In this document: positions 17,123-23,135 of the stretch, in pieces | Layout: the number at the start of each line of letters is the position of its first letter | Position numbering within the stretch: the first letter of the stretch is position 1 | IMG/VR virus record: IMGVR_UViG_3300046000_001271 | Coordinates: 1 to 23,135 of that record | Source: a virus | DNA length: 23,135 bases | Direction: 5' to 3' (one strand) | Translations under genes and position numbers: made by a program | Notes under the pieces: model-generated | The model's database searches: none | What the model was told of the DNA's origin: nothing | The model's input: the letters and a program-made list of their open reading frames with translations, nothing else

Positions 17123-18217
17123 ATGCCAATTACTCCAGTAGACTTGACCGACACATTTGATGTTTGGCGCATTAGAACAAATCAGAATATAAATTTATCT
17201 GAAAGTGCAAACACAGCGGCGGCGGCTGCGTTTACTAGAGCTAATGCTGCAAACGTTCTAGCATTCAATACTGGTATAGGCGCTAATGCTTATGCAACTG
17301 CGGCCACTGCTGGTGCTAATGCATACATGATTACTATCCAGAATGGTTCTAACACAGCAATTGGTACAGGTGCAAATAGTTATTTACTAGCAACTCTAGC
17401 TGGTGCTAATGTTGCCGTAGGTACTGGTGCTAACGCATATATGATCGCTGTTCAGAATGGTTCAAATACTGCCGTAGGTACAGGTGCAAATGCATTCACT
17501 AGTGCAACAATAGCAGGCGCCAATACTGCCGTAGGCGTAGGTGCAAATGCATTCACTAGTGCAACAATAGCAGGAGCTAACACAGCAATTGGTACAGGAG
17601 CTAACGCCTTTGCTACAGCCGCTGCAACTGGCGCAAATACAGTGGCCGTAGCCGCTTTTGCTAAAGCTAACTCATCAAGTGTTAATATCTTTTCAGACTT
17701 AGTTAATACAAACAGATATGTTACCTTTGCAAACAACAATTCTGGTAATACACAATCACTGAACGTTTCTACTTATGGACTATTGTTTAATCCTTTTACA
17801 AGCACACTAACGTCCAATAATATCTCAATTCCTGTGTCATTAGGTATTGGCACAGCACCTTCTGGTACAGCAGGTGAGATTAGAGCAACGAGTGATATTA
17901 CTGCATACTATTCATCAGACATTTCGTTGAAAGAAAATATAAATGTGATACCTGATGCTCTCTCAAAATTAATCCAAATAAATGGTGTTGAATTTGATTG
18001 GAGTCAATCATACATCGACAAAAGAGGTGGTGAAGATGGGTACTTTATCCGTAAAAGAGACGTTGGTGTTATAGCTCAAGAAGTAGAGAAAATTCTTCCT
18101 CAAGTAGTTGCAACAAGAGGTGATGGAATTAAAGCTGTCAAATATGAAAAACTAATAGCATTACTAATTGAAGCTATCAAAGAATTGAACGAAAAAATAG
18201 AATCTAAGAAAGAATAA
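17123..18217 (+). CDS. Short tail fibre with 19-residue repeats and S74 self-cleaving chaperone domain
   Basis: 364 residues. The N-terminus DTFDVWRIRTNQNINL (10-25) is a pattern seen at the start of fibre-like proteins in T4-like marine phages. Residues 64 to about 180 are repeats of G-A-N-A-Y/F with A-x-A-G-A-N-T-A-V/I-G-T and a 19-residue period, probably a trimeric shaft. After a segment with LGIGTAPSGTAGEIRATSD comes a Peptidase_S74 intramolecular chaperone domain: SDISLKENI with Ser265 and Lys270 in the S-x(4)-K spacing of the known catalytic Ser-Lys dyad, DVGVIAQEVEKILPQVV, then a C-terminal helix LIALLIEAIKELNEKI. In characterised relatives the domain guides trimer folding, then cuts itself off before the serine. 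That would release about 100 residues and leave a mature fibre of about 264. Translation probably uses AAAGGA at 17105-17110. Confidence 0.9.
   Translation: MPITPVDLTDTFDVWRIRTNQNINLSESANTAAAAAFTRANAANVLAFNTGIGANAYATAATAGANAYMITIQNGSNTAIGTGANSYLLATLAGANVAVGTGANAYMIAVQNGSNTAVGTGANAFTSATIAGANTAVGVGANAFTSATIAGANTAIGTGANAFATAAATGANTVAVAAFAKANSSSVNIFSDLVNTNRYVTFANNNSGNTQSLNVSTYGLLFNPFTSTLTSNNISIPVSLGIGTAPSGTAGEIRATSDITAYYSSDISLKENINVIPDALSKLIQINGVEFDWSQSYIDKRGGEDGYFIRKRDVGVIAQEVEKILPQVVATRGDGIKAVKYEKLIALLIEAIKELNEKIESKKE
17312..17650 (+). repeat. 57-bp tandem repeats encoding 19-residue fibre units
   Basis: Five full units of 57 bases (17312-17596) plus a diverged sixth. Each encodes G-A-N-A/S-Y/F, seven variable residues (T-I-Q-N-G-S-N or T-I-A-G-A-N type), then T-A-I/V-G-T. 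Units alternate between a MITIQNGSN form and an ATIAGAN form. Units four and five share a nearly identical stretch running from GTGCAAATGCATTCACTAGT, at 17483 and again 57 bases later. Confidence 0.85.
17915..18214 (+). other. Peptidase_S74 intramolecular chaperone domain, predicted self-cleaved fragment
   Basis: Begins at Ser265, the predicted cut site and catalytic serine, with Lys270 as partner. The conserved G-V-I-A-Q-E-V core and terminal coiled helix follow. The cut position is inferred from the endosialidase and related fibre chaperones. Confidence 0.85.
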
Positions 18218-18798: not shown

Positions 18799-21700
18799 AT
18801 GGCAAATACACTAATTCAAATAAAAAGATCAACTACTACAGCAACCCCAAGTTCTCTTAATGTGGGCGAGCTTGCTTATTCTTATACATCAAATATAGCT
18901 TTTATAGGTACTTCTGATAATACTGGTGCACTTCCCATCGGTGGTCAATTTTATGTTGAAAGAACAAATACTGCTCTAGTGGCAGCCAATGCCGCATTGG
19001 CTAATACTACAGGTACATTTGCAGGCACACTTACAGTAGCAAATGATCTGATTGTTACTGGTAATGCTACATTTGATACCAATACAATGTATGTTGATGC
19101 TATTAACAATAGAGTTGGTATTGGTACAGCAGCACCATTGTTTAGATTACAAAGCAATGGTACTATAGCATCATATTCATCAGATGGAACAAATTATGGC
19201 ACATTAGGTTCTACGAGTATAAGTCTCGGCCAGAACAATTCGTTTCGCTCAGTTATATCTCATTCTGGAAATGAATCTTTACATTTTACTCCGTACAATC
19301 AATTAGTACTTGCGCTGTCTGCTTCAGATTTTACACCAAGTGTCCAGCTGACAAGTAGCAGAACTTTTGGTTGGAGTTCAACTAATGGACAATCTAATAG
19401 TCCTGATCTAGTTTTTCATAGAGATGTTGCAAATACGTTAGGCCAAAGAAACGGTACAGCAGGTCAAACATATAGACTTTATGGTACATTTACAGACACA
19501 TCTAATTATGAACGTTTAAGTATTTCTGCTAACGCAAGTGGTTCTTTTATACAGACACAACATGCTGGAACAGGAACTGCTCGATCACTGAATCTAGGCG
19601 CTAACAATACAACATTATTTCAAATTCAGCCAGCCGCAAAACCAATAAGAATGTCATCGGGTAGTATTGCTGGTACATCAGGTACAGGATTTTATCATTT
19701 AGATAATACTTCTTTTGCTTTTGGTCAAGATGCAGGATCGGGTGTGTGGGGTGGTATCTATTATGATGGATTTGTAGTTTCTTCCGAAAAGTTCTATGGT
19801 TTTGGATCATCTGGAACAGCTTCTCCTGATACTTTATTATATCGTGATGGTGCGTCAGGAAGGTTAGCACAAAGAAATAGTTCAGCCGCACAATCATATC
19901 GTCTTTATGGTACATATACAGATGCTTCTAACTATGAACGTATCAATCTAACTGCTAACACAACTGGACATTATATTATTGGTGAAGAAGGTGGTACTGG
20001 TGCTGCTCGTCCATTATATCTAGGTTCTAATAATGCTATTGCTGTTACTATTGAATCTAATAATACAGTTAGAACAAGTAGTACGCTTACATCTGGTGGA
20101 AGTATTGGTATTGGTGGTCAAGCTGTAACTAGTGCTGGTTGGGAATATAATAATCCCGCCGACATGTCAATTTATTCAAACTCTTCTAAAATGATAGGTA
20201 TACACGGTGGTAGCGGTTTTGTATTGTTTAGAAACGCAATTGCATTAAGTAGTACTGCAAACTATAATACTCAAGATGTCATTCTCGCGCGCGATGCTGC
20301 AAATATATTAGCACAACGTAATGGTACAGCTAATCAAACATATCGTCTATATGGCACATACACAGACACATCCAATTATGAACGCATAAACATAACTGCT
20401 AACACAACTGGCCATTATATCATTGGTGAAGAAGCAGGCACTGGATCAGGACGACCATTATATCTAGGTTCTAATAACCGTATCAACATGACAATCGATA
20501 CTTCTGGTAACGTTGGCATTGGTGTAACTGCACCATCTAGCATCCTTGATGTAAATGGTAAAATTACAACTCGATTTGGTGGTGCTTTAAGAGGTTACTT
20601 TGGTAGTCCTTCTTGGGATAGTTCTTATGTTGCAATTCAACATGGTTCTCTTGGCGAATCTTCAAGCAATGCAGCAATTCATCAAAGTTCGGTTGGTGAC
20701 ACTACACTCAATGCTGCAATAGGTAGAAGCGTTCTACTTAAAATTAATAATGATGCTGGAGGTCAAGGACAACTTGCATTTACTAGTAAGAATTTTGCAT
20801 TTACTGGTGCAAACGTTGGTATTGGTATTGCTACAGCAACGTCCAATCTGCATGTTATCGGTACAGCAAACGTCACATCGAATCTTGTTGTTCAAGGTGT
20901 AGATGTATTATCAAGTATAACAGGTGCTAACAACTATGCTAACTCTACATATGTAAAGTTGTCAGCAGCAAGCCAGACAATAACTGGCGATCTAACAGTT
21001 GTTGGTAATCTAAGTCTTAGTGGAAATACTACATTTTCTAACGCTCAAACGCTGATCGTCAATGATCCACTAATCTATCTTGCTGGTAATAATTATACTT
21101 CAGACATTATAGATATAGGTTTCATTGCCAACTATGTGAACGCAACTGGATCTAATGTTCATACTGGATTGTATCGTGAACATGAAGACAAGATGTACTA
21201 TCTGTTTCAGGGTTATGATAGAGAACCAATAAACAATCATATTGGTGCTTTATCTAATAACATGACGCTTGCTGTTCTTAATGCAGACTTGAGAACAAGC
21301 AACTTGACTCTTGGTGGTACAAACACTATCACATGGATCACATCTTCATTTGCGAAAGCCAATGCAGCACTAGCTAATACATCTGGTATTTGGTTTAACG
21401 GCAATCTAACAATAGGTTCTGCAACATCTGATGTGTATCTTGGTGACACGATTGTCTATGCTAATCTTGGTAGTGCTGTATCAAATAGTAACTCTGGTTT
21501 TGTCATTAATCAGACATGGAACAACGCAGGTCAAATTTTTACTGGTCTGACAATCAATGTTAATAGCACCGCGGCTTCGGCATCTTCTTATCTTCTTGAC
21601 GTAAAACAAAACAATGCTAGTGCCTTCTATGTGAGACGATACACAGGAATTCAAGGTGAAATTGGTATTAATTCAAACGGTGGTATTTGGAATTTAAGAG

Positions 21701-23135
21701 TTGTTGGTAATGAAGTTAATCTAATAGGAACTTCTGGCAATCATAACGTTAAACTTCCAGGCGCAAACTTTCTTCGTTCCGCTGTTGGTTATGGCTTTGA
21801 ACTAGGTAGCTCAAGTGGTTCTGTATTATATTCAGGCGCGCAAGAAGCGGCAAACACTCTTGCACAACGTAACGGAACAGCAGCACAAGCATATCGTCTT
21901 TATGGCACATATACTGACGCATCCAATTATGAACGTATCAATCTAACTGCTAACACAACTGGTCACTATATTATTGGTGAAAAAGGTGGTACTGGTTCAG
22001 CAAGACCATTATATCTTGGTTCTAATAATGCTATTGCAGCAACGATTGATGATCAGGGTAGAGTTGGAATTGGCACTACAAGTCCAACCTCGCCTCTTCA
22101 TGTGGCTGGTGCAACATTTCCAGTAGCAAGAATAGAAAGAACAACGTCTCTTACAACAGGATCAAGGTCCTCATTTGCATCAATACACAAAACAACTGGT
22201 GATATGACAGATGGTTTTGGCACTGATTTCAGTTTTATAATAAGAGATTCATCAAATGTTGATAATGAAATCGCTCAATTTGGTGCGTGGAGAGATGGTG
22301 CAGACAATAGCGGAACACTATTTTTCTCGACAATAAATGCTGGTGTGTTTGAGTATCCAAAGATGTTTATCAAACCCAATGGTCGTGTTGGTATTGGTAC
22401 ATTCACACCAACAGCAAAACTAACGCTTGCCAATGGTACATCTGCTACATCACAACACATATACGGTACTTATACAGATGCATCCAATTATGAACGTATA
22501 AACATAACTGCCAACTCTTCTGGTCATTATATCATTGGTGAAGAAGCTGGTACTGGATCAGCAAGACCACTATATCTGGGTTCTAATAATGCTATTGCAG
22601 CAACGATTACTGATCAGGGTAGAGTAGGTATTGGTACGACAAATCCTCTTGCTACATTGCAAGTTAATGGAAGTATATTATTAGCTAACAGTTCTGGAGT
22701 TGGTTTAAACACTCTACTCATAAATCCAAAAAATATATCCAACTTCTCAGTGATTGGTACTTATCCTGCTGAAGGTACCAACATCAACTCTACATTATGG
22801 GTTGTACCAAAAGGAACAGGTGTAGCAAACAATAAGGCACAAATTAACGTCTTTAAAACAGATTTCGTGGCAGATTCTACAAATTATGAGTTTGCTGGTC
22901 TTAGAGCAAGAGATTTTGATTTTTTCTTCGCAACAGGAAAAAATGGAACTGGTATAACAAGACCATTAGTTTTTTCTGCTGGTGGTTTAAATGGCCCGCC
23001 TATAAACGAAAATCAATTTGTTGTTGACACAACAGGTAACGTAGGTGTCGGCACATCATCGCCTGCATACAAACTAGAAGTTGCTGGTTCGTTTGCTGCT
23101 CAGACAAAGAGCTTTATTATCAACCATCAGAGTTC
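18799..23135 (+). CDS. Very long repeat-rich tail fibre protein (3' end outside window)
   Basis: Open from ATG 18799, directly after the previous stop and behind GGTGGAA (18784-18790), to the window edge: 1445 codons without a stop. The N-terminus (IQIKRSTTTATPSSLNVGEL, then AYSYTSNIAFIG) is the attachment-type start of many phage fibres. The body is built of recurring modules: at least seven VGIGTxxPxxxLxVxG motifs; five copies of a 62-residue unit centred on LYGTYTDASNYERI; one copy of a known fibre module near PLIYLAGNNYTSDIIDIGFI with HTGLYREHEDKMYYLF (about residues 750-816); and Ala-rich AxANAALANT linkers. No S74 domain has appeared by the window edge, and one could lie further downstream. 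It is probably a host-recognition fibre; the receptor is unknown. An apparent 104-residue minus-strand frame at 19601-19915 is a shadow of this gene. Confidence 0.88.
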   Translation, partial: MANTLIQIKRSTTTATPSSLNVGELAYSYTSNIAFIGTSDNTGALPIGGQFYVERTNTALVAANAALANTTGTFAGTLTVANDLIVTGNATFDTNTMYVDAINNRVGIGTAAPLFRLQSNGTIASYSSDGTNYGTLGSTSISLGQNNSFRSVISHSGNESLHFTPYNQLVLALSASDFTPSVQLTSSRTFGWSSTNGQSNSPDLVFHRDVANTLGQRNGTAGQTYRLYGTFTDTSNYERLSISANASGSFIQTQHAGTGTARSLNLGANNTTLFQIQPAAKPIRMSSGSIAGTSGTGFYHLDNTSFAFGQDAGSGVWGGIYYDGFVVSSEKFYGFGSSGTASPDTLLYRDGASGRLAQRNSSAAQSYRLYGTYTDASNYERINLTANTTGHYIIGEEGGTGAARPLYLGSNNAIAVTIESNNTVRTSSTLTSGGSIGIGGQAVTSAGWEYNNPADMSIYSNSSKMIGIHGGSGFVLFRNAIALSSTANYNTQDVILARDAANILAQRNGTANQTYRLYGTYTDTSNYERINITANTTGHYIIGEEAGTGSGRPLYLGSNNRINMTIDTSGNVGIGVTAPSSILDVNGKITTRFGGALRGYFGSPSWDSSYVAIQHGSLGESSSNAAIHQSSVGDTTLNAAIGRSVLLKINNDAGGQGQLAFTSKNFAFTGANVGIGIATATSNLHVIGTANVTSNLVVQGVDVLSSITGANNYANSTYVKLSAASQTITGDLTVVGNLSLSGNTTFSNAQTLIVNDPLIYLAGNNYTSDIIDIGFIANYVNATGSNVHTGLYREHEDKMYYLFQGYDREPINNHIGALSNNMTLAVLNADLRTSNLTLGGTNTITWITSSFAKANAALANTSGIWFNGNLTIGSATSDVYLGDTIVYANLGSAVSNSNSGFVINQTWNNAGQIFTGLTINVNSTAASASSYLLDVKQNNASAFYVRRYTGIQGEIGINSNGGIWNLRVVGNEVNLIGTSGNHNVKLPGANFLRSAVGYGFELGSSSGSVLYSGAQEAANTLAQRNGTAAQAYRLYGTYTDASNYERINLTANTTGHYIIGEKGGTGSARPLYLGSNNAIAATIDDQGRVGIGTTSPTSPLHVAGATFPVARIERTTSLTTGSRSSFASIHKTTGDMTDGFGTDFSFIIRDSSNVDNEIAQFGAWRDGADNSGTLFFSTINAGVFEYPKMFIKPNGRVGIGTFTPTAKLTLANGTSATSQHIYGTYTDASNYERINITANSSGHYIIGEEAGTGSARPLYLGSNNAIAATITDQGRVGIGTTNPLATLQVNGSILLANSSGVGLNTLLINPKNISNFSVIGTYPAEGTNINSTLWVVPKGTGVANNKAQINVFKTDFVADSTNYEFAGLRARDFDFFFATGKNGTGITRPLVFSAGGLNGPPINENQFVVDTTGNVGVGTSSPAYKLEVAGSFAAQTKSFIINHQS
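19444..19629 (+). repeat. Fibre 62-residue module, copy 1 (most diverged)
   Basis: 186 bases encoding QRNGTAGQTYRLYGTFTDTS, NYERLSISANASG, then G-T-G-T-A-R-S-L-N-L-G-A-N-N. The beginning is conserved and the middle departs from the other copies. Confidence 0.85.
19870..20055 (+). repeat. Fibre 62-residue module, copy 2
   Basis: 186 bases, same length and register as copy 1. Contains LYGTYTDASNYERINLTANT, GHYIIGEEGGTGAARPLYLG and SNNAIAVTI. Confidence 0.9.
20314..20499 (+). repeat. Fibre 62-residue module, copy 3
   Basis: 186 bases. Contains LYGTYTDTSNYERINITANT and GHYIIGEEAGTGSGRPLYLG; followed directly by a VGIGVTAP motif at 20512. Confidence 0.9.
21865..22050 (+). repeat. Fibre 62-residue module, copy 4
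   Basis: 186 bases. Nearly the same protein as copy 2 (GHYIIGEKGGTGSARPLYLG), with many differing bases that are largely synonymous; followed by VGIGTTSP at 22063. Confidence 0.9.
22450..22611 (+). repeat. Fibre 62-residue module, copy 5 (shortened start)
   Basis: Begins with a replaced lead (SQHIYGTYTD instead of QRNGTAxQxYRLYGTYTD), then matches copies 3 and 4 to NNAIAATI; followed by VGIGTTNP at 22624. A further, much diverged relative may lie near 22855-22985 (STNYEF ... GTGITRPLVFSAGG). Confidence 0.85.

Follow-up and report, generated by a model that had tools for sequence, protein, structure and literature searches.

The window analysed here, the whole 23,135-base record of an uncultured bacterial virus, contains a T4-like baseplate and tail cluster ending in a long fibre gene, and raises the question of why a module of about 62 residues should recur along that single gene, and whether it acts as a conserved shaft element, as a place where fibre segments change partners, or as both. 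Pfam searches returned matches to Gp8 (PF09215) and to a baseplate wedge protein, and a gp6 homologue shares 29-31% identity with cyanophages; both the order of the baseplate genes and their homology are T4-like. The fibre gene runs off the end of the window, and its remainder is supplied by contig L006, which is 99.93% identical to the window across 11,271 bases and encodes the full protein of 1547 aa (L006:6938-11581). The N-terminus is similar to that of other phage fibres. A Pfam match to DUF4055, with an E-value of only 0.013, was rejected as the identity of the protein. Within the window, the gene is organised as follows:

18799..23133, + strand, long fibre gene, 1445 aa within the window and open at its end
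18799..18984, + strand, N-terminal domain, common to fibre genes at the same genome place in relatives, probably virion-proximal
19444..19632, + strand, module copy 1, the most divergent of the first five
19867..20064, + strand, module copy 2 (codon alignment, profile, tree)
20311..20511, + strand, module copy 3 (codon alignment, profile, tree)
20923..21387, + strand, E1 unit, common to same-place fibres of relatives without the module
21505..21633, + strand, second widespread module, M2 (QTWNNAGxxFTGLxxNVT...; LSQTWNNAGTTFTGLKLNVTDTASA...)
21862..22059, + strand, module copy 4 (codon alignment, profile, tree, structure model)
22429..22620, + strand, module copy 5, with a different entry (capping loop plus TSATSQHIYGT), a variant also seen in L008-L010
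22831..23040 (aa 1345-1414), + strand, module copy 6, degenerate (iterated profile, E = 9e-10)

The protein ends beyond the window in a C-terminal cap (LRYGSLEGPENGVYVRG; L006:11240-11578), an uncharacterised type of fibre tip that is common, its relatives occurring in 507 viral stretches; the cap had no match in Pfam, the PHROGs that it matched are ones of unknown function, and its comparison with solved folds gave nothing below an E-value of 0.001. Around the fibre gene, a neighbouring ORF (17123-18217) combines an N-terminal half containing 57-base repeats (GANAF..ATxAGANTAxGT) with a C-terminal Peptidase_S74 domain. On the 3' side, L006 carries three tandem ORFs of 228-255 aa (L006:11790-14214), two of which match Laminin_G_3, and another three of 319-337 aa (L006:16348-19297), the first matching phrog_9600.

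The original prediction had proposed five copies of a 62-residue module in a shared register. Five in-frame copies are present where it had placed them, alignable over 65 codons without indels, and their matches to the module profile (E = 1e-22 to 1e-26) show that they are no chance resemblance. The count of five omitted the divergent sixth copy at 22831-23040, and copy 5, which had been given a start at 22450, does lie there, but its homology to the other copies begins only at about base 22456. The first 13 or so codons of this copy belong to a different variant, in which a capping loop comes first and LTLANGTSATSQHIYGTYTD next. Copies 2-5 share 77-92% identity in protein and 77-88% in DNA, whereas copy 1 shares just 52-60% identity with the others (dN/dS 0.26-0.43) and is older and more divergent than copies 2-5.

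The resemblance among copies 2-5 had been ascribed to selection on old duplicates that differ largely at synonymous positions, and codon analysis agrees on each point. Pairwise dN/dS values range from 0.09 to 0.23, and their bootstrap upper limits (0.22-0.61) all fall below one, away from the ratio near one that would speak against selection; the dS values of 0.48-1.01 indicate that these are not fresh duplications. Combined with the lack of any sign of conversion at silent sites, these values indicate copies that are old and maintained by purifying selection. Gene conversion within the gene, rather than selection alone, might also keep the copies alike through concerted evolution: copies 4 and 5 have an additional common 3' stretch (86-93% identity across some 60 bases that run through the capping loop), copies 2 and 4 have 35 identical bases in common, and a conversion test on all sites detected significant clustering. 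At silent sites, however, a run-length test among the copies found no clustering (P 0.6), and dS among copies 2-5 is as large as the 0.59 that separates copy 5 from the single module copy of another phage, L008; we regard conversion as quite an unlikely explanation.

Selection on long-separated copies thus being the preferred account, the L008 comparison also bears on their origin. Its dS is the same as for copy 4 against copy 5, and the protein tree joins copy 5 and the L008 copy as sisters (100/93), so that either copies 2-5 were not all born in this phage lineage or the block around copy 5 has moved as a unit. The stretch made up of copy 5 with its preceding and following capping loops is found at 81% DNA identity over 276 bases in L008-L010, where the neighbours on both sides differ from those in the window.

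Capping loops were identified by a motif described in fibres of the Bdellovibrio MAT family, in which it marks the edges of beta-helix segments, and which is present too in MyRF, an S74 protein (PMC10769870). The full gene encodes seven VGIGTxxPxxxL motifs:

19114..19149, + strand, capping loop VGIGTAAPLFRL, motif as in PMC10769870
20512..20547, + strand, capping loop after copy 3
20815..20850, + strand, capping loop VGIGIATATSNL
22063..22098, + strand, capping loop after copy 4
22387..22422, + strand, capping loop before copy 5
22624..22659, + strand, capping loop after copy 5
23041..23076, + strand, capping loop after copy 6

Every copy had been expected to adjoin such a boundary. The motif does follow copies 3, 4, 5 and 6, and also precedes copy 5, but none follows copies 1 and 2. 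The gene hence has the V-G-x-G-x-x-x-P-x-x-x-L loops that close shaft segments in MAT/S74-type fibres. The block containing VGIGIATATSNL is common to L008-L010 (90%) and to a second fibre gene on L006 (86%).

An AlphaFold2 model of copy 4 (model mdad20687c2df), computed from an alignment of 91 related sequences, reached a pLDDT of 84; averaged by block, the score is 90-97 across residues 31-100. All of the modelled chain is strand or loop. Foldseek searches of this model against the PDB returned Bdellovibrio MAT fibre structures at ranks 1 to 15 (best E-value 7.5e-4). Compared over the whole length, the model gives low TM-scores against these structures (0.26-0.38) and a large rmsd. A single chain taken out of an interwoven trimer would be expected to score in this way, although this agreement is no proof of such an arrangement. 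Furthermore, a profile built from the copies aligns with 8OJN (E = 2e-5) along the module's second half and the loop. Among predicted viral structures, most hits are to fibre-like proteins from uncultured Caudovirales and from cyanophages, and predicted uncultured-phage fibres give TM-scores of 0.64-0.69 in the best five matches. The model is consistent with a beta-strand shaft fold of the MAT/S74 type and supports the shaft alternative of the conserved shaft or trimer-clamp element that had been proposed; the module would then occupy a shaft position and pack as a trimer.

The module extends well beyond this virus. A strict pattern search identified relatives in 73 viral loci and 11 bacterial genome contigs, the latter including a Bdellovibrionales MAG at 55% identity (L258 carries the module), and this search and later scans together located it in 148 distinct ORFs among the retrieved sequences, 97 of which also contain M2. 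The second fibre gene on L006 is among its carriers. On a Verrucomicrobiales contig (L263:4083-8168), five module copies form a single clade of their own, a separate expansion. A tblastn search with the module against 50,697 phage records yielded nothing at 1e-5 and just weak matches up to E 10, indicating that its nearest relatives are uncultured. No Pfam family scored above its gathering threshold for the window's module copy, a Pfam search with 91 module members gave scattered weak matches to three families, and a literature search on the motif letters returned nothing relevant.

Presence of the module is uneven among close neighbours. Of the phages with the 112-aa neighbour gene seen in the window, just three sequences (the window itself, L006 and L007) have it, and in about 50 relatives the fibres at the same genome position mostly do without it and are built from other units: the N-terminal domain, E1, collagen-like repeats and, in some, the same C-terminal cap. 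Three same-position fibre ORFs of 2114-2413 aa (L088, L089 and L090) repeat E1 four to five times and have no module, so more than one unit gets repeated between variable segments in these genes.

Surface domains repeated along a fibre are able to bind glycans, and MAT fibres present a surface cleft between capping loops (PMC10769870), so the module might instead be a ligand-binding domain of the lectin-like knob kind, repeated for avidity and no part of the shaft. We consider this very unlikely: the module is so similar across unrelated phages and bacteria as to be unlike a specificity domain, the variable parts of the gene sit between its copies, and the structures that its fold matches are MAT fibres containing beta-helix shaft regions.

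The wide distribution of the module would also make it a site at which fibre genes could exchange segments. Loci L020 and L048 have the fibre N-terminus in common and differ in the next segment, and from inside the module their DNA becomes 98-100% identical for 376 bases, against about 85% in the flanking genome. At L057, the following gene is L020-like upstream of the module and L048-like downstream. Matches from other samples exist for both: L270 matches L057 at up to 90% (query residues 27-399), and L048 is identical to L053 across 5241 bases. A single 74-kb contig has L020 at one end and L057 at the other, with two different alleles of one fibre region, and for that reason their mosaics call for caution; the contig may reflect an imperfect circular overlap or strain mixing, and some alleles may be assembly-mixed.

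To score junctions across the 148 ORFs, at least 75% identity was required on one side over 40 columns, and at least 68% onward to column 110, with 30% or less on the other side over 40 columns. This rule replaced an earlier protein-level test in which the module alone could fill the 50-column side. Of the 50 clustered junctions that this left, 21 fell within 10 aa of a module, against 12.5 expected (P about 0.004), and 35 at a module or M2, against 21.2 expected (P 0.0005). Under five threshold settings, four gave P values of 0.005-0.03 and one gave 0.07. The excess is modest, about 1.7-fold, and may be inflated by alignment anchoring on the conserved module. In a first test at the DNA level, which covered fewer alleles, the ends of blocks with at least 80-90% identity showed no excess in modules (16 against 15.6 expected; 3 against 4.0), and an excess appeared at the 75% cut-off only, where module conservation alone could cause it. 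From these P values and the null DNA test, the enrichment has support but is modest in size, and other joints exist beside the module.

The null result at high DNA identity would fit a module that is nothing more than a conserved structural repeat, with flanks diverging by point changes and indels and junctions mirroring conservation, and purifying selection alone accounts for the conservation within the gene. That reading is rather unlikely given the abrupt rise in identity inside the module between L020 and L048, the switch of nearest relative across the module in L057, and the persistence of the enrichment when the similar side must run 110 columns past the junction. Rather than colinear fibres with no exchange near the modules, the relatives are non-colinear with junctions enriched there. 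The segment exchange put forward in the original prediction is accordingly borne out in related fibre genes, but not for the gene in the window itself, since the searches turned up no close relative suited to the comparison.

The reading we favour, and consider probable, is a trimeric beta-helix-type fibre in which a near-constant shaft module doubles as an exchange joint. The case for this reading draws on the repeat, the purifying selection acting on it, its breadth, the predicted beta fold with MAT fibres as its nearest solved fold, and the junction enrichment in related genes. The gene would encode a long fibre of a T4-like phage with a contractile tail, built like the trimeric beta-helix fibres of the MAT and S74 types: after the N-terminal domain would come a shaft whose beta-structured units are each closed by a VGIGTxxPxxxL loop, and then the C-terminal cap. 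The module would be one standard shaft unit, with five to seven beta strands, separating variable segments. The need to fold and to pack in register within the trimer may keep it near-constant, and it may serve as a homologous joint because many fibre genes carry it, so that recombination between fibre genes at the module or M2 would join new segments and leave the shaft unbroken. Homologous recombination is the putative mechanism of such exchange, which might in turn affect host recognition. A bolder proposal, which we hold only as a doubtful possibility, is that the module is a dedicated joint, selected both as a shaft unit that accepts any neighbour and as a shared recombination stretch, linking unrelated phages and bacteria, predatory Bdellovibrio relatives included, in one pool of fibre parts.

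Among known systems, the nearest solved fold is that of the Bdellovibrio bacteriovorus MAT fibres Bd3182, Bd2133, Bd2439 and Bd1334 (PDB 8OJN, 8OND, 8ONF and 8OML; PMC10769870), which likewise have VGxGTxxPxxxL capping loops, beta-strand shaft units and modular C-terminal caps. MAT proteins have an N-terminal domain of 130 aa behind a signal peptide. The window's fibre is a phage virion protein encoded beside baseplate genes, and its C-terminal cap is of another, unsolved type. S74 phage fibres, such as the T5 L-shaped tail fibre and the K1F endosialidase, have the same type of stalk with capping loops (PMC10769870), and in L008-L010 the module is placed ahead of an S74 motif (SDxxxK, identified by motif). 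The window's fibre ends instead in the LRYGSLEGPENGVYVRG domain and gave no Pfam Peptidase_S74 match for a C-terminal chaperone domain (SDxxxK).

As with T4 gp37-type adhesins, segments are exchanged between T4-like fibre genes. In gp37, short His-boxes act as joints; here the joints are 62-residue modules, and no gp37 homology was found in the window's fibre. Tail-fibre mosaicism is documented (PMC2993671), and recent tail-fibre shuffling between unrelated flanks, with domain mosaicism, has been described for phage receptor-binding proteins (PMC10684548); that work compares families in bulk, whereas here the repeated joint itself is pinpointed. Such mosaicism is well known and its joints are seldom located, and this module provides a new, well-resolved example: a unit of about 62 residues, not in Pfam, which recurs as many as six times within a gene, is carried by numerous phage genes as well as some bacterial ones, and marks places where fibres change partners. 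Through it, uncultured T4-like phages are connected with a class of trimeric fibres whose structures have been solved. It can also help to annotate fibre genes from the environment, and provides a defined element with which to test the origin of new fibre combinations.
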